Shown: positions 7,777-20,117 of the stretch, piece by piece
Position numbering within the stretch: the first letter of the stretch is position 1
How the letters are laid out: each line of letters starts with the position of its first letter
Translations under genes and position numbers: made by a program
The notes under the pieces: model-generated
The model's input: the letters and a program-made list of their open reading frames with translations, nothing else
Databases searched by the model: none
What the model was told of the DNA's origin: nothing
Assembly (NCBI RefSeq): GCF_017875275.1
Contig: NZ_JAGGML010000001.1
Span: forward strand, 2,501,001-2,565,000
Length of the DNA stretch: 64,000 bases
Direction of reading: 5' to 3'
Source: Xanthobacter flavus
Lineage (GTDB): Bacteria > Pseudomonadota > Alphaproteobacteria > Rhizobiales > Xanthobacteraceae

Positions 7777-9108
7777 GTGAGCGATGCCAATGAAGTAGCG
7801 CGAGGGCCCTGGCAATCGGAGTATCTTGCGCTGCATGATCCCGTCACCAGCCTGCCGAACCGCCTTCTCATGATGGAGTTCCTGTCCGGCGCGCTCAGCT
7901 CGCCGCAGGAAGGCAGGCGGACGCTTGCCGTGTTCGCGCTCGACATCGACAATTTCCGCCAGCTGAACGACATGTACGGCCTGGCCTCCGGTGATCTGAT
8001 CCTCGCCGAGACCGCCCGCCGGTTGCGCCGCTGCGTGCGCGACAACGACCTCGTTGCCCGCGTGGGCGCCGACGAGTTCGTGCTGGTGGCCACGGGTCTC
8101 GCCGACACGAAGGCGGTGGACGGGCTTCAGCGCCGTCTGCAGGCCGCGCTGAGCGTTCCTGTTGCCCTGCCGTCCGGCGCCGTCGCCTATCCGCAGGCCG
8201 ACATGGGCATCGCCCTCGCGCCGCTGGATGCGCAGGAACCCGACCGTCTGGTGCACTGCGCCGAGCTTGCTCTCAACCGGGCGAAGGACGAGGGGCCGGG
8301 CGCCTGCTGCTATTTCGCCGCCGACATGAACGACGAGATGGCCGGGCGCCGCACGCTGGAAGGCGACCTCCGGCGCGCCATCGTGTCGGACGAGTTCGTG
8401 CTGCTGTTCCAGCCGCGCTGCGACGCGCGCACGCTGGAACTGCTGGGTGTCGAGGCCCTGATCCGCTGGGATCATCCCCAGCTCGGCCGGCTCGCGCCGG
8501 ACGAGTTCGTGCCGATCGCCGAGAAGAGCGGGCTGGTGATTCCGCTCGGCGAATGGGTGCTGCGCAAGGCCTGCGACACCATCTCCCGCCTGCCGGAGCT
8601 GAATGTCTCGGTGAACGTCTCGGTGGTGCAGTTCCGCAACGGCGAACTGGTCGGCACCGTGGAATCCGCGCTCCGGGCCACCAGCCTGCCGGCCCACCGG
8701 CTGGAGCTGGAGATCACCGAGAGCGTGCTCATCGAGAATACGGACAAGGCCCTCGACATCCTCGAGGGGCTCAAGAAGCTGGGCGTCCGCCTCTCCATGG
8801 ACGACTTCGGCACCGGCTATTCCTCGCTCGGCTATCTGCGCACCTTCCCCTTCGATGCCCTGAAGATCGATCGCCGTTTCGTCGGCGACCTCGACCAGAG
8901 CAAGGGTGCCCTCGCCATCGTGCAGGCCATCCTCGGCCTCGGCCGGGCGCTCGGCATGCAGGTGGTGGCGGAAGGGGTGGAGACGGAGACGCAGCTCGCC
9001 GTCCTCAAGGCCGATTCCTGCGACGAGGTGCAGGGCTTCTATCTCGGCCGCCCCATGACCGAGGAGGCGCTGCGCGCCTATATCGCCGAGCGGCGCCTCG
9101 CGAGCTGA
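7777..9108 (+). CDS. GGDEF-EAL protein, probable c-di-GMP phosphodiesterase
   Basis: A 443-residue cytoplasmic protein with no sensor or membrane segment. The GGDEF domain (about 20-180) has a changed active-site signature, GADEF at 97-101, but retains an inhibitory-site RxxD (R88-D91) exactly five residues upstream. The EAL domain (about 193-440) looks intact: EAL at 226-228, DDFGTGYSSL from 342, and a late VAEGVET. It most likely degrades c-di-GMP, with the GGDEF half possibly regulatory. The start is a GTG with only a weak Shine-Dalgarno match. The nearby MshEN-bearing glycosyltransferase (17039-19162) is a possible c-di-GMP target. Confidence 0.9.
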   Translation: MSDANEVARGPWQSEYLALHDPVTSLPNRLLMMEFLSGALSSPQEGRRTLAVFALDIDNFRQLNDMYGLASGDLILAETARRLRRCVRDNDLVARVGADEFVLVATGLADTKAVDGLQRRLQAALSVPVALPSGAVAYPQADMGIALAPLDAQEPDRLVHCAELALNRAKDEGPGACCYFAADMNDEMAGRRTLEGDLRRAIVSDEFVLLFQPRCDARTLELLGVEALIRWDHPQLGRLAPDEFVPIAEKSGLVIPLGEWVLRKACDTISRLPELNVSVNVSVVQFRNGELVGTVESALRATSLPAHRLELEITESVLIENTDKALDILEGLKKLGVRLSMDDFGTGYSSLGYLRTFPFDALKIDRRFVGDLDQSKGALAIVQAILGLGRALGMQVVAEGVETETQLAVLKADSCDEVQGFYLGRPMTEEALRAYIAERRLAS

Positions 9109-9180
9109 GGGCTCAAGCTCTTTCCCCGCCGTCGCCGTCCGGCCGTTGCGAACACGCGCAGAACGGCGGGCGAATTCCGG

Positions 9181-10449
9181 TCAGTCGAGCCATGGCGCCG
9201 GTCGATCCAGCGCGATCAGCGCGGCCGGATCGACGCGCGGGCGTACCACCGCCGCCTCATCCCCGCGCACCAGCACTTCGGGCACGAGCGCGCGGGTGTT
9301 GTAGGTGCCGGACTGGACGGCGCCATAGGCGCCCGCCGTCATCACCGCGAGGAGGTCGCCAGGCTGCACCTCCGGCAGCGGCCGGTCGAGGGCGAGGAAA
9401 TCGCCGGTCTCGCACACCGGCCCGACCACGTCGGCCACCACCATGGCGGCGTCGGCCGCGGGCTCGGCCACGGGCAGGATGTCGTGGTGGGCCTCGTAGA
9501 GGGTGGGGCGGATGAGGTCGTTCATGGCGGCGTCCACCACCACGAAGGTCTTGCCCTCGCCCTTCTTCACATAGATCACCCGGGTGACGAGGATGCCCGC
9601 GTTGGCCACCAGCATGCGGCCCATCTCGAACACCAGCGGCAGCTTGATGTCGCCGAGCGCCCGGCCCACCACCTCGGCATAGGCGGCGGGGGAGGGGGGG
9701 ATGGGGTCGGAAGCCGCGTAAGGCACGCCGAGGCCGCCGCCGAGGTCCATGTGGTGCAGCCTGTGGCCGGCGGCCATCAGGTCGCGCGCCAGCTCCGCCA
9801 GCAGCGTCACCGCATTCTCGAACGGCGCCATGTCGGTGATCTGGCTGCCGATGTGCATGTCCACGCCGGTGATGGCGAGGCCGGGCAGGCGGGCGGCGTA
9901 ATCATACACCTCCCGGGCGCGGGAGATGGGGATGCCGAACTTGGTGGCCGACTTGCCGGTGGAGATCTTCTTGTGGGTCTTCGCGTCCACGTCCGGATTG
10001 ACGCGGATGGAGACCGGCGCCTTCACGCCCTTCGAGACCGCGACCTGCGACAAGGCGTCAAGCTCCGGCTCGCTCTCCACGTTGAAGCACAGGATGCCGG
10101 CATCGAGCGCCTGCGTCATCTCCTCGCGCGTCTTGCCGACGCCGGAGAAGACGATGCGCTGTCCGGGCACGCCGGCGGCGCGCGCGCGCATCAGCTCACC
10201 GGCGGAAACGATGTCCGCCCCCGCGCCGAGCCGGCCGAGGGTGGAGATGACCGACTGGTTGGAATTGGCCTTCAGCGCGTAGCACAGCAGCACGTCGCGG
10301 CCGGCGAACGCCTCCATGAACACGCGGTAGTGCCGCTCCAGCGTGGCGGTGGCATAGCAATAGAAGGGCGTGCCCACCTCGGCGGCGAGCCGGGTCAGGT
10401 CCACGTCCTCGGCATGGAGGCGGCCGTTGCGATAATCGAAATGGTGCAT
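9181..10449 (-). CDS. lysA: Diaminopimelate decarboxylase
   Basis: PLP enzyme making L-lysine from meso-diaminopimelate, the last step of lysine synthesis. It has 422 residues, the usual length. K60 in CYALKANSNQ is the PLP lysine; GGGLGVPY provides the phosphate-binding glycines and GPVCETGDFLA carries the active-site cysteine-glutamate pair donated across the dimer. It is the last gene of argH-lptM-lysA on this strand, an order widespread in alphaproteobacteria. Confidence 0.96.
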   Translation of the reverse strand: MHHFDYRNGRLHAEDVDLTRLAAEVGTPFYCYATATLERHYRVFMEAFAGRDVLLCYALKANSNQSVISTLGRLGAGADIVSAGELMRARAAGVPGQRIVFSGVGKTREEMTQALDAGILCFNVESEPELDALSQVAVSKGVKAPVSIRVNPDVDAKTHKKISTGKSATKFGIPISRAREVYDYAARLPGLAITGVDMHIGSQITDMAPFENAVTLLAELARDLMAAGHRLHHMDLGGGLGVPYAASDPIPPSPAAYAEVVGRALGDIKLPLVFEMGRMLVANAGILVTRVIYVKKGEGKTFVVVDAAMNDLIRPTLYEAHHDILPVAEPAADAAMVVADVVGPVCETGDFLALDRPLPEVQPGDLLAVMTAGAYGAVQSGTYNTRALVPEVLVRGDEAAVVRPRVDPAALIALDRPAPWLD

Positions 10450-10574
10450 CGGGGCGGCTTGTCGAAGGCTCGTTCCGCGCGCCGGCCGGGGGCGGCGCCG
10501 TCAGGCGTGCGCGGGTGGGCGAGGAAGGGTTGCTGTGTGGAAGGGCCGTTCGGCCCGGCCTTCCGGCCTGCGGG

Positions 10575-10889
10575 TCAGAGCAGGCCGTCGATGAGGAGCG
10601 GCTGGTCGGGGCGATCGATGCCCTGCAGCAGCTTCTGGGAGCTGTTGGTGCCGGTGGTCTTCTTCTTCTCCCAGGAGGCGTGCGGAACGGCGCTCTCGTT
10701 GAATTCCGCTGCGGTCTTGGGGGCCGTGTAGGAGGTGCTCGCATCGCCGGAAGCCGCTGCCGTGGTGGCCGGCTTCGGCGGGGGGGCGGCGGCATGGGCG
10801 CCGGGCGGGGGCTCCAGCGGACCCTTCACCCCGCACGCCGCGAGGGCGAGGGTGCCGCAGAGGGCCATAAGGGTCGCAAGGGATCGCAT
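10575..10889 (-). CDS. lptM: Small lipoprotein LptM-like (YifL family)
   Basis: A 104-residue secreted lipoprotein. A short positively charged start and hydrophobic stretch end in the lipobox LALAAC with C19 as lipidation site, followed at once by the family hallmark GVKGPLEPP. LptM-like proteins assist LptD maturation in the lipopolysaccharide translocon; the C-terminal part here is longer, alanine/threonine-rich and low in complexity. ATG 10904 (five residues longer) is an equally possible start. It lies between argH and lysA, its usual place. Confidence 0.75.
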   Translation of the reverse strand: MRSLATLMALCGTLALAACGVKGPLEPPPGAHAAAPPPKPATTAAASGDASTSYTAPKTAAEFNESAVPHASWEKKKTTGTNSSQKLLQGIDRPDQPLLIDGLL

Positions 10890-10986
10890 CTTCGTCCGTG
10901 CCATTGGCATCAATGTTGGCGACACTATAGCCCGCGCTGCGGCAAAGGCGAGCCCCCGGCGCAGCGGGGGCTTCCTCCGGCCGGCA

Positions 10987-12384
10987 TCAGGCCGCGTCCG
11001 GGGCGGCCCCGAGGCGCTTCAGCCAGCGCCGCGCCTGAGCGCGCACCCGCTGCGGCGCGGTGCCGCCATAGCTGGTGCGGCTGCGCACCGAGCGCACCAC
11101 GGACAGTACGGAGAACACGTCGCCGGTGATGCGCTTGTCCACCGCCTGCATCTCTTCGAGCGACACCTTGTGCAGCGCAATGCCGCGGTCCGAGGCCAGA
11201 GCCACGATGCGTCCCGTGATGTGGTGCGCCTCGCGGAACGGGATGTTCAGCGCCCGCACCAGCCAGTCGGCGAGGTCGGTGGCGGTGGAATAGCCCTGGC
11301 CGGCGGCGGCGGCCATGCGCTTCTCGTCGGGCACCATGTCGCGGACCATGCCGGCGGAGGCGGCGATCACCAAGGAGAGGGCGGAGAAGGCATCGAACGC
11401 GCCTTCCTTGTCCTCCTGCATGTCCTTGGCATAGGCCAAAGGCAGGCCCTTCATCACCACGAGGATGCCGGTGAGCGCGCCGATAATGCGCCCGGCCTTG
11501 GCGCGCACCAGCTCGGCGGCATCGGGGTTGCGCTTCTGCGGCATGATGGACGAGCCGGTGGTGAAGGCATCCGACAGCTTCACCAGCGCGAAGGAGGGCG
11601 AGGTCCAGATCACCACCTCCTCGGCAAAACGCGAGAGGTGGATGGCGCAGATGGACGCCGCCGAGAGCGTCTCCATCACGAAGTCGCGGTCGGAGACGGC
11701 ATCGAGCGAATTGGCGGTGGGCCGGTCGAAGCCGAGCGCGGCGGCGGTCGCCTCGCGATCGATGGGGAAGGAGGTGCCGGCCAGCGCCGCCGAGCCCAGC
11801 GGGCATTCATTGAGGCGCTTCCTCGCATCGGCGAAGCGGCTGCGGTCGCGTGCCACCATTTCCACATAGGCCATCAGATGGTGGCCGAAGGTCACCGGCT
11901 GGGCGGTCTGCAGATGGGTGAACCCGGGCATGACGGTCGCGGCGTGTTCAAGCGCCTTCTCCGCCAGCGCGCGCTGGAGGTCGGCCAATTGCGCATCGAG
12001 GGCGTCCACCGTGTCGCGCACGTAGAGGCGGAAGTCGGTGGCCACCTGGTCGTTGCGCGAGCGGGCTGTGTGGAGGCGCCCGGCGGGGGCGCCGATGAGT
12101 TCGGCGAGGCGCGATTCCACGTTCATGTGGATGTCCTCCAGCTCGCGCCGGAAGGAGAACTTGCCCGCCTCGATCTCTGACAGGATCGTGTCTAGACCCT
12201 TGGTGATCTTCTGGGCATCTTTCGCCGCCACGATGCCCTGGGCGGCCAGCATGGCCGCGTGCGCCTTGGAACCGGCGATATCCTGCGCATAAAGACGCTG
12301 GTCGAAGCCGATGGAGGCGTTGATCTCCTCCATGATGGCGTCGGGGGCAGTGCTGAAGCGCCCGCCCCACATCTTGTTGCTCAT
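10987..12384 (-). CDS. argH: Argininosuccinate lyase
   Basis: Splits argininosuccinate into arginine and fumarate. The 465-residue protein begins [11 protein letters not shown], typical of the family, and contains the fumarase/aspartase-superfamily signature [12 protein letters not shown] and the HTARSRNDQ segment. It heads the argH-lptM-lysA group. Its start codon lies close to and divergent from tlpA, leaving less than 20 bases between the two preferred starts, so the promoters must overlap the opposite coding regions. Confidence 0.97.
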
Positions 12385-12400
12385 GACGGACCCTCCGGTG

Positions 12401-13201
12401 ATGACGAATGCCGACGACAGCCGCGCGACAGACCCTCAGAACACGGCAACCGGCCCCGCGCCGGGCGCGCCGGTGGCGAGGCGCTCTTCCGCGGTGAGGA
12501 CGATCGGCGTGGTCGCGCTGGCGACGCTCGCAGGCGCCGTGGCCGGCGCGCTCGCCCTATACGGGATGAACCGCCTTCCCGGCAATGCACCGCAGGGCCA
12601 GAGCGTCGCGAACGTGCCGGCGGCGGCCCCGCTGGCCGGCGCCGCAGACCCCGCCTGCGCCGGAACCGTGGAGCGGGTCCGGGCCTTCGCGCCCCTCGCG
12701 AAAGGCGAGCTGGCTGCGCTGGCGCTGGCCACCGAGCCGCGCCGCCTGCCGCCCCTCACCTTCGCCGATGCTTCCGGCAAGCCCGTGACGCTGGCCGACT
12801 TCAAGGGCCGGGTGGTGCTGCTCAATCTCTGGGCCACCTGGTGCGTGCCCTGCCGCAAGGAGATGCCGGCTCTCGACCATCTGGAGAAGAGGCTTGGCGG
12901 GCCCGACTTCGCCGTGGTGGCGGTCAATCTGGATACGCGCGACCCCGACAAGCCGAAGGCCTTCCTCTCAGAGATCGGCGTCAACAGCCTCGCTTTCTAT
13001 GCTGATCCCGCCACCAAGACATTCCAGGCCCTGCGCGGGGTGGGGCGCGGCTTCGGCCTGCCCACCACCCTCCTGATCGACCGCAACGGCTGCGAGATGG
13101 CCTATCTGGCCGGCCCGGCGGAATGGGGCGGTGCCGATGCCGAGGCGCTGGTGAAAGCCGCCATCGGGGCCGGCCGCGCCGATGCCGGTGCCGCCCGATA
13201 A
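12401..13201 (+). CDS. tlpA: Membrane-anchored thioredoxin-like protein TlpA
   Basis: A 266-residue periplasmic thiol reductase with an N-terminal membrane anchor (about residues 34-55) and a thioredoxin fold containing the active site WCVPC (C148, C151) and a later cis-proline loop GLPTTLLID. In Bradyrhizobium TlpA reduces the copper chaperone ScoI and subunit CoxB for cytochrome oxidase assembly. Divergence from argH is common in Hyphomicrobiales. The start is uncertain: ATG 12401 is preferred over ATG 12383, which would overlap the argH start codon; neither has a strong Shine-Dalgarno sequence. Confidence 0.9.
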
Positions 13202-13436
13202 GCTGGAGCGGGGCGGATTAGGATACCTATTTCCGGGCGCCCGGCCATTCCCAATCTGCTAAAATATCGACCCGCTTAAATCTCTCGCAACCTTCGGGCG
13301 GCACAGTAGCGCTGCAACCTGAGGGATGGGGAATCTCCGTGCGGGCGGCCCTCGGGTGCCGTGGTGCCGTTTACCTTCCTTTCACTCATGTTTCATTTGC
13401 GCGCCCGGAGCTGGTATATCTTGCTCTTGACAGCGT

Positions 13437-14681
13437 GTGCCTACACGCGAAGTCAAGATCGAATCATTGGTACAGCCTTTGAAAATATTATCGATTTTCG
13501 GCACACGGCCCGAAGCGATCAAGATGGCGCCCCTGGTTCAGGCTTTGAACCGGGAACCGGCCGTGCAGTCGCTCGTCTGTGTGACCGGACAGCACCGGGA
13601 GATGCTGGACCAGGTTTTGCGCCTTTTCGACCTCTCGCCCGACTTCGATCTTGGCCTTATGTCTCACAATCAGGGGTTGAATGATCTGGCCGGTGGAGCG
13701 CTGACCGCCATCGACCGCGTGCTCGATGAGGTCAGGCCCGACCGCGTGCTCGTCCACGGGGACACGACGACCGCCATGGCCGCCGCACTCGCCGCCTTCC
13801 ACCGGCGCATTCCGGTGGGACATGTGGAGGCGGGCCTGCGCACCTATCACCTCGGCCAGCCGTTCCCCGAGGAGATGAACCGCCGCATCGTCGATCTGTG
13901 CAGCGACCTCCTGTTCGCGCCCACCCCCGGCTCCCGCGACAACCTCCTGTCGGAGCAACTGGAGGGGCAGGTGTTCGTCACCGGAAACACGGTGATCGAC
14001 GCCCTGCAGGCGATTCAGCACCGCCTCGACGCCGATCCCGGCCTGCGTGCCGCCCTCGACGCCGATTTGCCGCAGCTCGATCCGCGCCATCGCATCCTGC
14101 TTGTGACGGGGCACCGGCGGGAGAATTTCGGCGAGGGCTTCCGCACCATCTGCGAGGCCCTGGACCAGATCGCCGACCGCGGCGACGTGGAAATCGTCTA
14201 TCCCGTCCACCTCAATCCCAACGTCAAGGGTCCGGTGACGGCGGCGCTTGCCGGCCGGCCCAATGTGCATCTCGTGCCGCCGCTCGACTATTTGCCGTTC
14301 CAGCGGCTGATGCAGCGCAGCCATCTCGTGCTCACCGATTCCGGTGGCGTGCAGGAGGAGGCGCCCGCGCTGGGCAAGCCCGTCCTCGTCATGCGCGAGG
14401 TGACGGAACGCCCGGAGGCGGTCCATGCCGGCACGGTCCAGCTCGTCGGCACGGGACGCGCCGACATCGTCAACGCGGTGACCCGCCTTCTCGACGACTC
14501 GGCGGCCTATGCGGCCTATGCCGGGCGCATCAATCCCTACGGCGACGGGCATGCCTGCCGCCGGATCGTGGACTGCATCTGCGGGCGGCCGGTGCAGGAA
14601 TTTTCCCCTCTGCCCTTCCCGCCTGCCGCGTCCGCCCCTCGGCGCCCCGCCGGCCTCGACGCCCTGCTCGTGAGAGACTGA
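13437..14681 (+). CDS. wecB: UDP-N-acetylglucosamine 2-epimerase (non-hydrolysing)
   Basis: Interconverts UDP-GlcNAc and UDP-ManNAc. The 414 residues show the family landmarks GTRPEAIKMAP near the start, GHVEAGLRT, PEEMNRRIVD, VTGHRRENFG and DSGGVQEEAP. It opens a tight gene group: only one base separates it from the BcsB-like gene, so UDP-ManNAc is probably used by the encoded glycosyltransferase. The start is unclear: GTG 13437 has no good Shine-Dalgarno sequence, and a TTG just before KILSIFG is an alternative. The proline-rich C-terminal tail after about 395 is not part of the fold. Confidence 0.93.
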   Translation: MPTREVKIESLVQPLKILSIFGTRPEAIKMAPLVQALNREPAVQSLVCVTGQHREMLDQVLRLFDLSPDFDLGLMSHNQGLNDLAGGALTAIDRVLDEVRPDRVLVHGDTTTAMAAALAAFHRRIPVGHVEAGLRTYHLGQPFPEEMNRRIVDLCSDLLFAPTPGSRDNLLSEQLEGQVFVTGNTVIDALQAIQHRLDADPGLRAALDADLPQLDPRHRILLVTGHRRENFGEGFRTICEALDQIADRGDVEIVYPVHLNPNVKGPVTAALAGRPNVHLVPPLDYLPFQRLMQRSHLVLTDSGGVQEEAPALGKPVLVMREVTERPEAVHAGTVQLVGTGRADIVNAVTRLLDDSAAYAAYAGRINPYGDGHACRRIVDCICGRPVQEFSPLPFPPAASAPRRPAGLDALLVRD

Positions 14682-14682
14682 C

Positions 14683-17019
14683 ATGCGACACGTTCCCTCC
14701 CTCATCGCCCGTGGCGGGGCCGCCCGGGGCCGCGCCGCGCGGCGGATTCCGACATTCGCCGCCGCGCTCGTCTTGCCGGTGACCCTGCTTGCGGCCTGGC
14801 CGGCCGCGGCCCAGTCGCGCACGCCGGCACCCGTCGTCGCGCAGGCGCCTGCCGCGCAGATGCCGATCGTGCCGCAGCCGGTCCCGGCCTATGTGCCGCC
14901 GGTGGATCCGATCCTCTCGGCGATCCAGGAGCGGGCGGCCGACAGCCGCGTGACACGGTCCGTCACCCTCGGAGACCTGGGCATCGAGGGACCCGTCGTG
15001 CTGCAGGGCATGGACGCCCGCCGCGACATCTATCTGCCCGTGCCCGCCGGCGTTGCGCTCGAAAATGCCTCGATCGCGGTCGACGGCGAGTATCTGCGCG
15101 GCGACGGCGGCCGCACCACCATGGTGCTCTCGGTGGACGGCACGCCCGTCTACTCGCGGCGCCTGGAAGGCGACACCGGCAGCGCCAGCGCCACGGTGGC
15201 GGTGGACAACCGGCCGCGCGACACCGGCTTCGTGCGGTTCGGCACCGCCTGGTCGTCGGTGATCGGCGAGGCGCTCTGCGCCGACGAGCGCGGCATCGGC
15301 AACGTGCTGAAGCTGCGTCCCTCCACCCGCTTCACCTACAGCTTTGACGCCGGGCAGGTGCGCACCCTCGCCACCGCCTGGAGTGGCATGCCCGGCTCGG
15401 GCGCGCTTCTGGTGGCCGGCGGCACCCTGTCCAAGGACACCTACGACACCGCCTGGCGCCTCGGCCTCGCGCTCGAAACCGCCGGCAAGCGCCTGGTGGT
15501 GAAGACGCTGCCTTCCATCGGCGACGAGGTGGACCTTTCCAATCTCGACGTGCCGGCGTCGCTGCGCGCCGTCGCCCCCTTCTCCAGCTTCGTGGGCGTC
15601 AGGAGCTACCGTATCCGCGATGCGTCCGAACTCGGCGCTCTGCTGGTTCTGCCCGGCTCGCCGCTCGGCGCGGACGTGGCGGTGGCGGACGTGGCTCTTC
15701 TCTCGGGCATCCGTGGTGCCCTCGACGCGCTCGGCGCGCGCCTGGGGACGGCCTCCGCCGCCTTCACCGAATGGCGCGGCAAGTCGGCGAGCCTCGGCTC
15801 CGCGACCATCGCTCCCGATGAGGTGAGCCTGCAGTTCCTCGCCGGACGCCCGATCATCGCGGTCGGCGGCGCCGCGGGCGGCAAGGCCACCCAGCTGTTC
15901 GACGGCTTCTGGCGGACCTCGCTGACCTCCGGCTCGGTCATGATCCGGGCTGTGGACGCGGGCGCCGACCGGCCCTCCTCCGTGCTGCTCAACACCCTCG
16001 GCCCGACCGAAGGCAATCTCGACGTTCTCGCCCGCGGCGACTGGGTGGTGACGTTCGATCTCGCCGCGGCCACCGGTGGCCGCAGCCTGCCGAGCCGCCT
16101 CAACCTCGATGTCGCGGCCGCGCCCGGCGCCTCCACCTCGGAACCCGTGGCGGCGGTCTTCCTCAACGACGTGCTTCTGGCGGCCAAGCGGCTCGATGCC
16201 AACGGCCACCCCGAGCACATCTCCGCCGCCGTCCCGCCCTACGCGCTGGCCGCCCGCAACGTCCTGCGCGTGACCTTCCAGCGCCAGCCGGTGAGCGACC
16301 GCTGCCGCGAGACGCCCCAGGCCTTCCCGGTCTCGGTGCTGCCCACCAGCCATTTCGAGCTGGGCGGCGCGGCTCCGAGCGGCGACTTCCTGGGCGTGAT
16401 CTCGGCCATGGCCGCGGGCGGCAAGCTGCTTGTGCCGGACTCCTATCTCGCCACCGCCAAGGCGAGCCTTCCGCGCGTGGTGCGCGCCGCCGCGGCGGCC
16501 GGCATGCCCGCAGGCACGAGCACCTTCGAGGTGGCCTCCCTCGGCACCCCGTTCCGCGCCACCGGCGGCTTCCTCGCCCTCGATGTGCCGGTCCAGGGCG
16601 TGACGGCGAAGGCGAAGGTGGACGGCGACCGTCTCATCGTCGGCACCGACGAGCGGGCCCGCCTGCTCGACATCACCGGCCTCAGGAACGTGGCCTTGGT
16701 GCAGGCGGTCCGCGGCGACGATGCCCGCGGCATCCTGTGGCAGAGCATCGGGCCGGTGGCGATGACGCCCGCCAAGCCGGTGCGCCTGTCGAAGGGTGAC
16801 GTGGCCCTTGTGGGTGTCGACGGCACGCTGACCGAACTCACCGCCTCGGGCGCCGCGCCCGGCACCGTCCGTGTCGCCGACACCGACGGCCCGGCCGGCA
16901 CCCTTCAGCGCCTGTGGCAGAACTCGTCGGACTGGGGCCTGCCGCTCGGCATCGGCGCCGCCGCCCTGTTCTTCCTGCTGCTGATCCGCGCCTCGCAGGT
17001 GCGGCGCCGCGGCAACTGA
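14683..17019 (+). CDS. BcsB-like periplasmic polysaccharide synthase subunit
   Basis: A 778-residue exported protein with a signal peptide (about 1-44, ending AAWPAAAQS), a proline/alanine linker, long beta-rich domains and one C-terminal transmembrane helix (about 752-771) followed by the basic tail RASQVRRRGN. This is the architecture of BcsB, the periplasmic cellulose-synthase partner that binds the nascent glycan and anchors to the synthase. Repeated carbohydrate-binding/flavodoxin-like layout is suggested but similarity to true BcsB is moderate by eye. No BcsA (PilZ) is nearby; the partner is the NfrB-like enzyme 19 bases downstream. Confidence 0.75.
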   Translation: MRHVPSLIARGGAARGRAARRIPTFAAALVLPVTLLAAWPAAAQSRTPAPVVAQAPAAQMPIVPQPVPAYVPPVDPILSAIQERAADSRVTRSVTLGDLGIEGPVVLQGMDARRDIYLPVPAGVALENASIAVDGEYLRGDGGRTTMVLSVDGTPVYSRRLEGDTGSASATVAVDNRPRDTGFVRFGTAWSSVIGEALCADERGIGNVLKLRPSTRFTYSFDAGQVRTLATAWSGMPGSGALLVAGGTLSKDTYDTAWRLGLALETAGKRLVVKTLPSIGDEVDLSNLDVPASLRAVAPFSSFVGVRSYRIRDASELGALLVLPGSPLGADVAVADVALLSGIRGALDALGARLGTASAAFTEWRGKSASLGSATIAPDEVSLQFLAGRPIIAVGGAAGGKATQLFDGFWRTSLTSGSVMIRAVDAGADRPSSVLLNTLGPTEGNLDVLARGDWVVTFDLAAATGGRSLPSRLNLDVAAAPGASTSEPVAAVFLNDVLLAAKRLDANGHPEHISAAVPPYALAARNVLRVTFQRQPVSDRCRETPQAFPVSVLPTSHFELGGAAPSGDFLGVISAMAAGGKLLVPDSYLATAKASLPRVVRAAAAAGMPAGTSTFEVASLGTPFRATGGFLALDVPVQGVTAKAKVDGDRLIVGTDERARLLDITGLRNVALVQAVRGDDARGILWQSIGPVAMTPAKPVRLSKGDVALVGVDGTLTELTASGAAPGTVRVADTDGPAGTLQRLWQNSSDWGLPLGIGAAALFFLLLIRASQVRRRGN

Positions 17020-17038
17020 CCGGATCGGGACCGCCCCC

Positions 17039-19162
17039 ATGGCACTCTATTGGCCCTTTCTCCTGGCCGATTACATCCGCTTCGTCGAATACGTGGCGGC
17101 CGTGGTGGCGGTCATCATCCTGATCTCGTCCATCGACGATCTGTTGGTCGATGCCTGGTACTGGGGGCGGCGGATCTACCGCCGCTTCGTCATCGAGCCG
17201 TTCATCCGCCCGCTCACGCCGGCCGCGCTCTACCAGAAGGACGAGCAGCCGCTGGCCATCATGATTCCCGCCTGGCTCGAATCCCCCGTGATCGCGGCCA
17301 TGATCGAGAACATGGTGAGCGTGCTGGACTACCGGCGTTACGTGATCTTCGTCGGCACCTATCCCAACGACCCGGAGACCATCGCCGAGGTCGAGCGCAT
17401 GCGCCGGCGCTACAAGCAGCTGGTGCGGGTGGAGACGCGCAATCCCGGCCCCACCAACAAGGCGGACTGCCTCAACACGGTCGTGCGCGCCATCTTCCAG
17501 CACGAGCAGATGACCGGCGTGGAGTTCGCCGGGCTGGTGCTGCACGACGCCGAGGACGTGCTGCATCCGCTCGAACTGCGCTATTTCAGCTATCTCCTGC
17601 CGCGCAAGGATCTCATCCAGGTGCCGGTGCTCTCGCTGGAGCGCCACTGGTCGGAGCTGGTGGCCGGCATCTACATGGACGAATTCGCCGAATGGCACGC
17701 CAAGGACCTCGTGGTCCGCGAGAGCGTCGCCGGCTCGGTCCCGTCCGCGGGCGTGGGCACCTGCTTCTCGCGCCGGGCGATGCTGCATCTCCTCTCCGAC
17801 GGCACGGGCGAGGTGTTCAACACCGCGAGCCTGACCGAGGACTACGACATCAGCGCCCGCCTCGCCGCGGCGCACATGCAGTCCATCATCGCCCGCCTGC
17901 CGGTGGAATATATCGTCAGGCGCGAGAGCCTGTTCGGCTTCGGCAAGGAGAAGGAAATCCTGCTCTCCATGCCATTGTGCGTGCGCGAGTTCTTTCCCGA
18001 CACCTTCCGCACCTCCTACCGCCAGAAGGCGCGCTGGGCGCTGGGCATCGCCTTCCAGGGCTGGCGCTCCATGGGCTGGCGCGGCAACTGGGCGACCAAA
18101 TACTTCCTGTTCCGTGACCGCAAGGGCATCGTCACCTCCCTCGTGGCGGTGCTGGCCTATGTGGTCGCGGCGCACTTCCTCATCTTCATGAGCGCGGAGA
18201 AGCTCGACCTGCTGCCCGCCCGCTATCCTTCGATTTTCGCCACCGAGACCTGGCTGCTGGCGGTGCTGACGGGCAACGCCATCGCCTTCGCGCTGCGGCT
18301 GGCGCAACGCTACTATTTCGTCGCCAAGGTCTATGGCTGGGAACAGGGCCTGATGTCCGTCCCCCGCGTGGTGATGGCGAACTTCGTCAATTTCGCCGCC
18401 ACCATCCGCGCCTGGAAGCTGTTCCTGGGCCATACCTTCTTCGGCCGCCGGATCGTCTGGGACAAGACCGCCCACGACTTCCCCGATGCGCGGGAGCTGG
18501 GCCAGCAGCGCCAGCGGCTTGGCGAGCTTCTGCTCACCTGGCAGGCGGTGCTGCCGGAGCATGTGGAGGAGGCGCTGGCCCTGCAGGCCGAGCGGCAGCA
18601 GCCGCTGGGGCGCATCCTCGTGTCGCGCGGGTGGCTCGACGAGGAGACGCTGGCGGAGGCCATGGCCTTCCAGTCCAACCTGCCGCGCACCGTGGTGACC
18701 GAGCAGATGGTGCGGCAGTTCAACGATCTGCTGCCCATCGACCTGATGGTGCGGCGCCGCGTGCTGCCCATCGGCCGCGATCCGGGCGGGCGTCTCATCG
18801 TGGCGGTGCCCTCGCCGCTGGGCGACAAGGCGCTGGAGGAGCTGCGCCGCGCCATCGGCGACGAGCCGCTCCAGCGCATCGCCCGCGAGAGCGAGATCAA
18901 CGACGGCCTGCGCCTGCTGCGCGGGGCCGGCACCGGCAACGTGGACGGCCAGAAGTCGCCGCCGCTGCTGGGCGACCTGCTGCTGGAAAAGGGGCTGATG
19001 CGGCGCGAGGCGTTCGAGGCGGCCATGGAGAACTACCGCCCGGACGAGGATGGCCGTATCGGCGAGTATCTCGTTCGCTGTGGCGTTGTGACGGAAGACG
19101 CCCTGCGCGCCACGATCCGCGAGCAGGAGCGCCGCGTCGCCGCGTCGCTGGCGCCGGTATGA
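17039..19162 (+). CDS. NfrB-like GT2 glycosyltransferase with C-terminal MshEN (c-di-GMP) domains
   Basis: A 707-residue membrane glycosyltransferase. It has an N-terminal membrane segment (about 15-32) and a GT2 catalytic core with DAED at 170-173, TEDYD at 266-270 and QKARW at 329-333. Two or more membrane helices follow (about 364-384, 402-420). After them comes an MshEN/T2SSE_N domain (about 490-625): two 24-residue motifs, 493-516 and 522-545, spaced by five residues, as in c-di-GMP-binding MshE. A second, degenerate pair occupies 643-666 and 673-696. E. coli NfrB has the same plan and makes a ManNAc glycan when c-di-GMP is bound, which matches the upstream epimerase. Confidence 0.85.
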   Translation: MALYWPFLLADYIRFVEYVAAVVAVIILISSIDDLLVDAWYWGRRIYRRFVIEPFIRPLTPAALYQKDEQPLAIMIPAWLESPVIAAMIENMVSVLDYRRYVIFVGTYPNDPETIAEVERMRRRYKQLVRVETRNPGPTNKADCLNTVVRAIFQHEQMTGVEFAGLVLHDAEDVLHPLELRYFSYLLPRKDLIQVPVLSLERHWSELVAGIYMDEFAEWHAKDLVVRESVAGSVPSAGVGTCFSRRAMLHLLSDGTGEVFNTASLTEDYDISARLAAAHMQSIIARLPVEYIVRRESLFGFGKEKEILLSMPLCVREFFPDTFRTSYRQKARWALGIAFQGWRSMGWRGNWATKYFLFRDRKGIVTSLVAVLAYVVAAHFLIFMSAEKLDLLPARYPSIFATETWLLAVLTGNAIAFALRLAQRYYFVAKVYGWEQGLMSVPRVVMANFVNFAATIRAWKLFLGHTFFGRRIVWDKTAHDFPDARELGQQRQRLGELLLTWQAVLPEHVEEALALQAERQQPLGRILVSRGWLDEETLAEAMAFQSNLPRTVVTEQMVRQFNDLLPIDLMVRRRVLPIGRDPGGRLIVAVPSPLGDKALEELRRAIGDEPLQRIARESEINDGLRLLRGAGTGNVDGQKSPPLLGDLLLEKGLMRREAFEAAMENYRPDEDGRIGEYLVRCGVVTEDALRATIREQERRVAASLAPV

Positions 19163-19250
19163 TCCATCCGGCCCGCTGCCGGGCGGCCTCTGGCCGGGCG
19201 ACTTTTGCTTCCGCGCAACGCGGATGGCGGGCTGCACCGGGTTGCCTGCC

Positions 19251-20117
19251 ATGGCGCGTCTGAGCCGGCGCGCGGCCCTCGGCCTCGGCGCCGCCGCGGC
19301 GGGTGCGGGCCTGGTCGGCGTCGACCTTGCCCTCGTTGCACGCGACCATCGTCCCGAAGGCCTCATCGACGGGGTGGTCTGGCAGCTTCACGGGGGCGCG
19401 CTCGATCCCCGCGGCGACTGGGACTTCATCGGCGCCCGGAGCCTGCTTCTGCAATGGCTGGTGGCCGATGGCACCTCATTCGTGCCGCTGCCGGAGCTCG
19501 GCCTGAAGCTCATCCCCGACGCGCCCAACTGGAAGCGGATCGCCCGCGAGCCCTGGGCAAGCCGAATCATCGCTGGCCTCGCCGGTGATTTCTCCGAGCC
19601 CAAGGCGCGGGCCAATGTGGTGGAGCTCGGAGCCCTCTCGGCCAAGGTGGCGCGGCAGAAGCTGCCGTTCCGGCCGGCCGGCTTCTATTTCCCGGTGGAG
19701 GCTGACCCCACCTGGAAAGACGTTTCGCGCATGCGCGAGGCCCTCGCCCCCATTCCGCGCCCGCTCTGGGTCAGCTGCTACGACAATTCCAACGTTGGCC
19801 CCGAGGCACTGGCGGACTGGATCGATCTGTGGCTGCCGCGCGACGTGGGCCTGTTCTTTCAGGACGGGTGCGGCGTCTACACCCGCACGCCGGAAGCGGC
19901 CCGCAGCTATGCGGAGGTTCTTTCCCGCCGCCTTGGGCCGCGGCGCTTCAAGCTGATCGCCGAAGCCTTCCGTCCCGCCGGCACCGGCACATTCCGGGCC
20001 GCCACGGCGGCGGAGCTGCTGCCGCAGCTGAAGGCCTATGCGGGTTTCGACGTGTTCGTCTTCGACGGTCCCCATTACGTGGACCGCCTCATCGTTCAGC
20101 AGCTGATGGCGGGCTGA
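19251..20117 (+). CDS. Tat-type secreted protein, possible TIM-barrel (DUF4434-like) hydrolase
   Basis: A 288-residue protein starting MARLSRRAALGLG, a twin-arginine signal, so it should be exported folded. The mature part has an early GDWDFIGARSLLLQW segment, then alternating strand/helix blocks with AGFYFPVEADPTW, LWVSCYDN and VFVFDGPHYV, which look like a TIM barrel of the DUF4434 glycoside-hydrolase-like kind. The family name is from memory and uncertain. It lies 88 bases after the NfrB-like gene on the same strand and may trim or release the polymer. ATG 19224 would add nine residues before the twin arginine. Confidence 0.6.
   Translation: MARLSRRAALGLGAAAAGAGLVGVDLALVARDHRPEGLIDGVVWQLHGGALDPRGDWDFIGARSLLLQWLVADGTSFVPLPELGLKLIPDAPNWKRIAREPWASRIIAGLAGDFSEPKARANVVELGALSAKVARQKLPFRPAGFYFPVEADPTWKDVSRMREALAPIPRPLWVSCYDNSNVGPEALADWIDLWLPRDVGLFFQDGCGVYTRTPEAARSYAEVLSRRLGPRRFKLIAEAFRPAGTGTFRAATAAELLPQLKAYAGFDVFVFDGPHYVDRLIVQQLMAG

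Follow-up and report, generated by a model that had tools for sequence, protein, structure and literature searches.

The four-gene group and its proteins

The 64,000-base stretch of DNA analyzed here, referred to as the window, covers positions 2501001-2565000 of the 5.35 Mb genome of Xanthobacter flavus, which is assembled as a single contig. Four consecutive genes on the + strand of the window encode a WecB-type epimerase, a BcsB-like subunit, an NfrB-like synthase of glycosyltransferase family 2 (GT2) and a YbcH-like protein, and they are presented here as part of a candidate exopolysaccharide system related to the Nfr system of Escherichia coli. The closest named relatives belong to Xanthobacter, and the NfrB-like protein is 96% identical in X. 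aminoxidans. The features of the group are as follows.

13437-14681, + strand: wecB-type non-hydrolysing UDP-N-acetylglucosamine (UDP-GlcNAc) 2-epimerase, for supply of UDP-N-acetylmannosamine (UDP-ManNAc); TIGR00236, PF02350
14683-17019, + strand: BcsB-like periplasmic subunit; PF03170, AlphaFold model, Foldseek
17039-19162, + strand: NfrB-like GT2 synthase with a C-terminal MshEN domain; NF012033/PRK15489, PF05157, alignment with E. coli NfrB
19224 (or 19251)-20117, + strand: YbcH/DUF4434-like protein, putative periplasmic glycan hydrolase or binding protein; NF007404 (weak), hhalign, model
13202-13436, + strand: candidate promoter stretch of the group, 235 bases between tlpA and wecB

The identities and orientation of the four genes agree with those given earlier from the sequence alone (the original prediction) and were confirmed by family matches, that of the fourth gene being weak. 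Gaps of 1, 19, and 88 bases had been given between them. The first two hold, and the third is 61 bases with the start at 19224 and becomes 88 only if the fourth gene starts at the methionine codon at 19251.

The wecB product matches TIGR00236 with 466.6 bits (cut-off 210.15) and PF02350 with 387.5 bits, and within its own genome it is matched only by itself. The presence of a single wecB-type gene fits the rule, reported in PMC8669469, that a wecB gene is retained next to nfrB in species that have no other WecB. The proposal that an epimerase is encoded together with the NfrB-like synthase is borne out by the TIGR00236 match and by the lack of a second match in the genome. In G449, a genome of the same family, wecB and the BcsB-like gene form one frame of 1035 amino acids (L099:9005-12112, − strand). 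A hydrophobic helix lies between the two parts, a layout that would be expected where an enzyme of the cytoplasm is joined to a protein of the periplasm. No other single observation hints as strongly at a direct functional link of WecB with the BcsB-like protein.

The BcsB-like protein passes the cut-off of PF03170 (24.5 bits against 21). No NCBIfam match was obtained at E values up to 1, and a sequence search of the PDB returned no BcsB match and nothing else of use. Hydrophobic segments appear at residues 25-43 (N-terminal, a signal or transmembrane segment) and 752-770 (a C-terminal transmembrane anchor). The AlphaFold model of the protein, built from 32 sequences, has a mean predicted local distance difference test (pLDDT) score of 80.0. 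When this model was used as the Foldseek query against the PDB, the top 22 matches were BcsB chains or the B chains of cellulose synthase complexes, with E values of 9.3e-22 to 1.3e-14; these B chains, and 9b8v_G, are BcsB. The match that follows, at an E value of 1.7e-6, is unrelated. The TM-scores are moderate (0.34-0.48 on the query), and therefore the domains agree with those of BcsB better than their arrangement does. A BcsB-like partner for the synthase, as originally proposed, is thus supported by PF03170, by the structural matches and by the conserved neighbourhoods described below.

The NfrB-like synthase matches the curated equivalog NF012033 (PRK15489.1) with 1098.1 bits against a cut-off of 537, and NF053729 with 81.7 bits. 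It is 41% identical to E. coli NfrB over 619 amino acids. The GT2 catalytic residues of the NfrB family are present as D170, TED at 266-268, and QKARW at 329-333. Residues D170, D268, Q329, R332, W333, L494, G495, and G524 align with residues of E. coli NfrB. Six of the E. coli residues mutated in published studies (D169, D267, W330, L490, G491, and G519; PMC8669469, PMC8669472, as described in the available text) correspond to D170, D268, W333, L494, G495, and G524, respectively. In the 58 BcsB-linked synthases of the first tree described below, the three catalytic residues (D170, D268, and W333) are invariant (58/58), the MshEN glycines are kept in 56/58 and the leucine in 54/58.

The MshEN domain itself is matched by PF05157 with 41.9 bits (cut-off 23.1), so that an NfrB-like synthase with a C-terminal MshEN domain, as first described for this locus, is confirmed by NF012033 and PF05157. 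The motif pair occupies residues 493-516 and 522-545, which is the spacing of 24 + 5 + 24 residues reported for this domain in the available text of PMC5013675; the first residue of motif II is a proline. The C-terminal part of E. coli NfrB is reported to bind cyclic di-GMP (c-di-GMP) with a Kd of 1.0 µM (PMC8669469, available text). From these features of its sequence, the synthase of the window is probably c-di-GMP-responsive. A second MshEN-like pair of 24-residue motifs is found behind the recognised domain, at residues 643-666 and 673-696, and both of its RLG-type glycines are kept in 54/58 of the BcsB-linked synthases.

The fourth protein gives a weak match to NF007404 (27.4 bits, E value 2e-6), and hhalign aligns it with E. 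coli YbcH at a probability of 98.6%. A sequence search of the PDB returned nothing useful for this protein. With the start at 19251, a twin-arginine-like N-terminus can be read from the sequence. The structural model, built from 30 sequences, has a mean pLDDT of 92.3 and shows the alternation of strands and helices of a TIM barrel. The best Foldseek match is BT_0435, annotated as a putative alpha-L-fucosidase (E value 2.9e-5); the glycoside hydrolase domain of PgaB (BpsB) appears at rank 4 (E value 1.2e-3) and is followed by many other TIM barrels. Residues E159, D214, and E247 are invariant in 30 aligned sequences and are located at or just past strand ends in the model, a placement that would fit a glycan hydrolase or binder. 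The Acinetobacter counterpart, PgrE, is described as resembling the C-terminus of PgaB (PMC12507263, available text).

NfrA and O-acetylation genes upstream of the window

The profile NfrA_C (PF13283) was searched across the X. flavus genome and 100 relatives. In the X. flavus genome, a match of 249.9 bits is located at 2499955-2500470 on the + strand. The nfrA frame, read from its first start codon, encodes 1179 amino acids (genome positions 2496946-2500485; L194:11947-15486) and contains tetratricopeptide repeats (TPRs) and NfrA_C by Pfam (245 bits). The gene ends 515 bases before the start of the window at 2501001 and 13,951 bases before wecB, and it was thus invisible to the original prediction, whose statement that NfrA is absent is true only within the window.

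Directly before nfrA are genes for an AlgF-like protein (PF11182, 48.5 bits), an MBOAT protein (PF03062, 101.1 bits) and two AlgX-type proteins (PF16822, 237.3 and 249.1 bits). Such O-acetylation genes precede nfrA in 10/10 Xanthobacter regions inspected with hidden Markov models (HMMs) built in this analysis, which represent 10 of the 12 NfrA-bearing Xanthobacter genomes, X. flavus included and G403 and G405 left out. In G423, from the same family, a contiguous run of wecB-bcsB-nfrB-algF-MBOAT-algX-algX-nfrA is found. The genes algF, MBOAT, the first algX and the NfrA_C part of this run were identified by Pfam, and the remaining genes and the order by our own HMMs and gene maps. Most simply, the arrangement in Xanthobacter can be read as one gene cluster divided in two. 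In the seven genomes of the genus in which both parts were measured on one contig, nfrA is separated from the four-gene group by 14.0, 14.1, 14.3, 14.3, 23.8, 61.3, and 61.5 kb, and therefore the arrangement is not fixed.

Conservation and phylogeny of the synthase loci

Among the 101 genomes (X. flavus and 100 relatives), a full-length or catalytic-domain match to the NfrB-like synthase was obtained in 19, and an NfrA match in the identical set of 19; these are raw counts, uncorrected for the relatedness of the genomes. In a twentieth genome, G427, the match to the synthase is confined to the MshEN part (E value 5.7e-5). A match to the BcsB-like protein was obtained in 18 of the 19; in the exception, G441, a PF03170 gene (40.3 bits) is located between wecB and nfrB. 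BcsB-like matches without NfrA were found in three genomes (G420, G427, and G470). Within the genus, the system is present in 11 of the 13 other genomes, and NfrA is encoded elsewhere in all 11 of these synthase-holding genomes. No match was found in G402 and G407, for which absence is not shown since their assemblies consist of 470 and 350 contigs at 88% and 93% completeness, respectively.

The neighbourhoods were analyzed in the best 80 of 322 named relatives from a scan of genome contigs, a set that leans to close relatives and spans Xanthobacter, Microvirga, Aquabacter, Martelella, Paraburkholderia, Caballeronia, Ralstonia, Herbaspirillum, Herminiimonas, Massilia, Stenotrophomonas, and others. 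The HMMs used were built in this analysis with the window among their seeds, so that its own scores follow by construction. In 80/80 of these loci, nfrB is immediately preceded on its own strand by a BcsB-like gene, at a gap of −4 to 311 bases, so that the gene order is conserved to a degree well above chance; the BcsB-like gene is broken into pieces in L138 and L180 and cut by contig ends in L150 and L170. The epimerase is present in 68/80 (a fragment in L141, in pieces in L180), NfrA in 68/80, a YbcH-like gene in 69/80 and O-acetylation genes in 19/80, where the counts for NfrA, wecB and the YbcH-like gene are lower bounds for flanks that end early. A separate HMM of the barrel end of NfrA confirmed 66 of the 68 NfrA genes; the remaining two are truncated at contig ends. 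The corresponding counts for loci with full flanks are 58/64 for the epimerase, 56/64 for NfrA, 57/64 for the YbcH-like gene and 12/64 for the O-acetylation genes. Outside Xanthobacter, NfrA is encoded within 10 kb in 56/57 full-flank loci, the exception being L160. None was found in the flanks of the nine named Xanthobacter loci (7 with full flanks), in line with a split locus. The neighbourhood of homologues had been suggested as a check on the system, and the link is very strongly conserved, with NfrA as the rule.

Two trees of the synthase were calculated. The first contains 76 sequences: the window, every second of the 80 named loci (40) and 35 others. BcsB linkage was labelled in both trees with the HMM of this BcsB-like family. 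In the first tree, 58 BcsB-linked synthases are on one side of a branch with a Shimodaira-Hasegawa-like approximate likelihood ratio test (SH-aLRT) value of 97, and 18 labelled BcsB-free, including that of E. coli, are outside. In the second tree, reduced to 48 sequences by dropping seven long-branch rows (L046-L052) and thinning near relatives by hand, with three rows added, 34 BcsB-linked synthases group likewise (ultrafast bootstrap 95, SH-aLRT 90). The synthase of the window is outside the E. coli-type clade. In seven E. coli-type loci (L038-L040, L043-L045, and L101), nfrB, nfrA and a YbcH-like gene are directly consecutive, and the epimerase gene directly adjoins them in the four of these where it is linked. 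No BcsB-like match was obtained with our HMM within these seven loci.

In L216 (G631, a deep lineage; 8962-15968, − strand), genes for an MshEN synthase, a TPR protein, an epimerase and a BcsB protein are found in a row. The last of these, beside the epimerase, matches PF03170 with 140 bits and was missed by our HMM. Because L216 has a BcsB gene, the linkage to BcsB extends beyond one clade, and the trees do not establish a single origin. It could be an ancient trait that disappeared in the line of E. coli, or one that was acquired more than once. Divergent BcsB genes may also be concealed in further rows that carry the BcsB-free label and are not of the E. coli type. A search of whole genomes with PF03170 missed the BcsB-like gene of the window itself. 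The label BcsB-free thus describes loci, since this profile is too insensitive at the level of whole genomes.

Tentatively, and at somewhat less than even odds, the Nfr synthases may be divided into a BcsB-dependent class (the window and its alpha-, beta-, and gammaproteobacterial relatives) and a BcsB-free class (E. coli), with a BcsB-like crown as an obligatory partner of the ManNAc synthase in the former and a reduced Nfr system in E. coli. If so, BcsB-like subunits would be general periplasmic guides for several polymers rather than specific for cellulose.

In a sample of gammaproteobacteria, NfrA was found in 7/369 genomes and the synthase model reached at least 268 bits in 8/369; the system is therefore sporadic in this sample. 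At L097:8924-16251 and L100:8865-16130, a BcsB-like gene is found beside a different protein that matches the NfrB model only weakly and over a short length, and both genomes are without NfrA. A gene for a response regulator with a GGDEF domain follows in L097. These two loci perhaps represent another c-di-GMP glycan system. At L047:9231-15149, from the alphaproteobacterium G315, a short synthase without MshEN is followed by a large protein, and a YbcH-like gene is also present; this locus may belong to a further Nfr-like branch.

Proposed system and alternative explanations

The four-gene group is interpreted as one half, that of the synthase, of a Xanthobacter exopolysaccharide system that is synthase-dependent and of the Nfr/NGR (PGR-like) type; to this interpretation we assign a probability of about 0.85. 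The product is probably a ManNAc-containing, O-acetylated glycan made by a c-di-GMP-activated synthase; the sugar, the activation, the acetylation and all protein contacts are deduced from the genes. WecB would convert UDP-GlcNAc to UDP-ManNAc in the cytoplasm. The NfrB-like synthase would polymerise UDP-ManNAc and push the chain across the inner membrane once c-di-GMP is bound by MshEN. The BcsB-like protein, with its C-terminal helix as anchor, is predicted to sit against the synthase on the periplasmic side and to guide the chain, and the YbcH-like TIM-barrel protein may bind or trim it in the periplasm. O-Acetylation would be carried out by the AlgF-, MBOAT- and AlgX-type proteins encoded 14 kb upstream, and export by NfrA, with its TPRs and outer-membrane barrel, encoded beside them.

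Several observations weigh against this interpretation. The cut-off of the NfrB equivalog NF008411 is missed (647.7 bits against 1170), and the fourth protein is below the curated cut-offs of DUF4434 (13.9 against 30) and NF007404 (27.4 against 344). L537 of E. coli NfrB is M542 in the window, and the turn glycine of MshEN motif I is replaced by glutamine, as in 51/58 BcsB-linked synthases; E. coli NfrB likewise has glutamine at this position. In four members of the BcsB-linked clade (L036, L037, L099, and L203), the C-terminal MshEN region is largely or entirely missing. Control by c-di-GMP is therefore not universal; in these four it has apparently been lost or moved. The identity of the sugar is deduced solely from the epimerase, and no epimerase gene is found within 10 kb in 6/64 full-flank loci. 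Because nfrA and the O-acetylation genes are outside the operon of the four genes in Xanthobacter, their link to the group there is drawn from relatives.

A cellulose-like or poly-N-acetylglucosamine (PNAG)-like synthase that uses UDP-glucose or UDP-GlcNAc, with the epimerase serving another pathway, would account for the BcsB-like partner, for a weak PgaC match of the glycosyltransferase (25.3 bits against 422.3) and for the full-flank loci without a linked epimerase. This explanation is unlikely, since the glycosyltransferase is in the NfrB family with no BcsA model among its NCBIfam matches, and wecB is linked in most named loci and fused to the BcsB-like gene in G449. In addition, wecB is reported to be required for glycan-mediated infection by phages in E. 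coli and Acinetobacter (PMC8669469, PMC8669472, PMC12507263, available text).

The two remaining explanations concern NfrA. The original prediction had the BcsB-like subunit replace NfrA as the outer-membrane partner. Such a system without NfrA would be consistent with the window and with the flanks of the named Xanthobacter loci, none of which contains the gene; it is the least probable of the explanations considered, given that nfrA is 14 kb upstream on the same strand and is encoded elsewhere in all 11 other synthase-holding Xanthobacter genomes, that both genes occur together in nearly all full-flank loci outside the genus, and that the structural model of the BcsB-like protein resembles BcsB, a periplasmic protein, rather than an outer-membrane barrel. 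The BcsB-like protein was therefore rejected as a replacement for NfrA and is regarded as a subunit additional to it. It is likewise very improbable that the system, with its four genes intact, is silent or decaying in Xanthobacter because of the separation of nfrA. The split locus and the variable gap in the seven measured genomes would agree with decay, but open frames are found in X. flavus and at the 11 other Xanthobacter loci, save for wecB of G403 at a contig end, NfrA is retained in all 12 of these genomes, and the catalytic residues are kept.

The system interpreted here as Nfr/NGR-type shares with E. coli NfrB-NfrA-YbcH/NGR, as described in the available text of PMC8669469 and PMC8669472, an NfrB protein with MshEN, NfrA, a supply of ManNAc that depends on WecB (predicted for Xanthobacter) and, probably, a YbcH-like protein. 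The E. coli nfrBA-ybcH locus differs in having no adjacent BcsB-like or O-acetylation gene and in that wecB is in the enterobacterial common antigen cluster, whereas in X. flavus nfrA is 14 kb from wecB. The original prediction knew of no described system with exactly this composition, which two reports do not bear out. In Achromobacter xylosoxidans, nfrA, nfrB and wecB are clustered with a BcsB homologue and periplasmic O-acetyltransferases (PMC8669472, Sellner et al. 2021); by this description the parts are those of Xanthobacter, in one cluster rather than two loci. The Acinetobacter PGR locus encodes WecB (PgrF), an NfrB-like protein (PgrC), a BcsB homologue (PgrD), PgrE and a predicted outer-membrane porin, PgrG (PMC12507263, 2025), and is thus similar to Xanthobacter by description in its WecB, NfrB-like, BcsB and predicted porin proteins, and possibly in its PgaB-C-like protein. 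It differs in containing a degenerate GGDEF protein, PgrA, and the main text of that report is silent on MshEN and NfrA. Mutants in pgrD (BcsB) and pgrF (wecB) are reported there to be phage resistant and complementable. PMC8669469 (available text) also notes that nfrB is linked with wecB, that NfrB occurs occasionally among alphaproteobacteria and that Simplicispira suum has an acetyltransferase cluster of the alginate type. Beyond PMC8669472, PMC12507263, and PMC8669469, searches of the open-licence literature showed no account of this system for Xanthobacter and none of a class that combines NfrB with BcsB.

With the Bcs cellulose secretion system, the group has in common a periplasmic subunit of the BcsB kind that accompanies a GT2 synthase with probable c-di-GMP control. 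The architecture of Bcs systems includes BcsA with PilZ, and BcsC. In Xanthobacter the synthase is instead NfrB-type with MshEN, an epimerase is present and the barrel is that of NfrA; the adjoining synthase was the reason for rejecting a cellulose operon.

The composition of the system is already known, and the modest additions made here are the split locus and the BcsB-linked clade. The results place a probably ManNAc-based glycan under predicted c-di-GMP control in Xanthobacter. They also show that bcsB and nfrB stay together as a core, in most cases joined by wecB, in the best 80 of 322 named relatives. With this core conserved, what a BcsB-like subunit does apart from cellulose synthesis becomes testable in an environmental genus. 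Because the E. coli and Acinetobacter glycans are phage receptors according to the available text of the reports cited above, the Xanthobacter glycan is a candidate phage receptor.

The group is flanked upstream by an argH-type gene (− strand) and by tlpA (+ strand, NCBIfam match), and downstream by a purH-type gene (− strand); the argH-type and purH-type genes were recognised by inspection of the sequence rather than by a database match. A GGDEF-EAL protein is encoded at 7777-9108 of the window (+ strand; PF00563, 241 bits; PF00990, 116.9 bits), approximately 4.3 kb upstream of wecB, and is a possible local source or sink of c-di-GMP. Its gene is outside the transcription unit of wecB, because genes on the opposite strand (9181-10449, 10575-10925, and 10987-12384) intervene.

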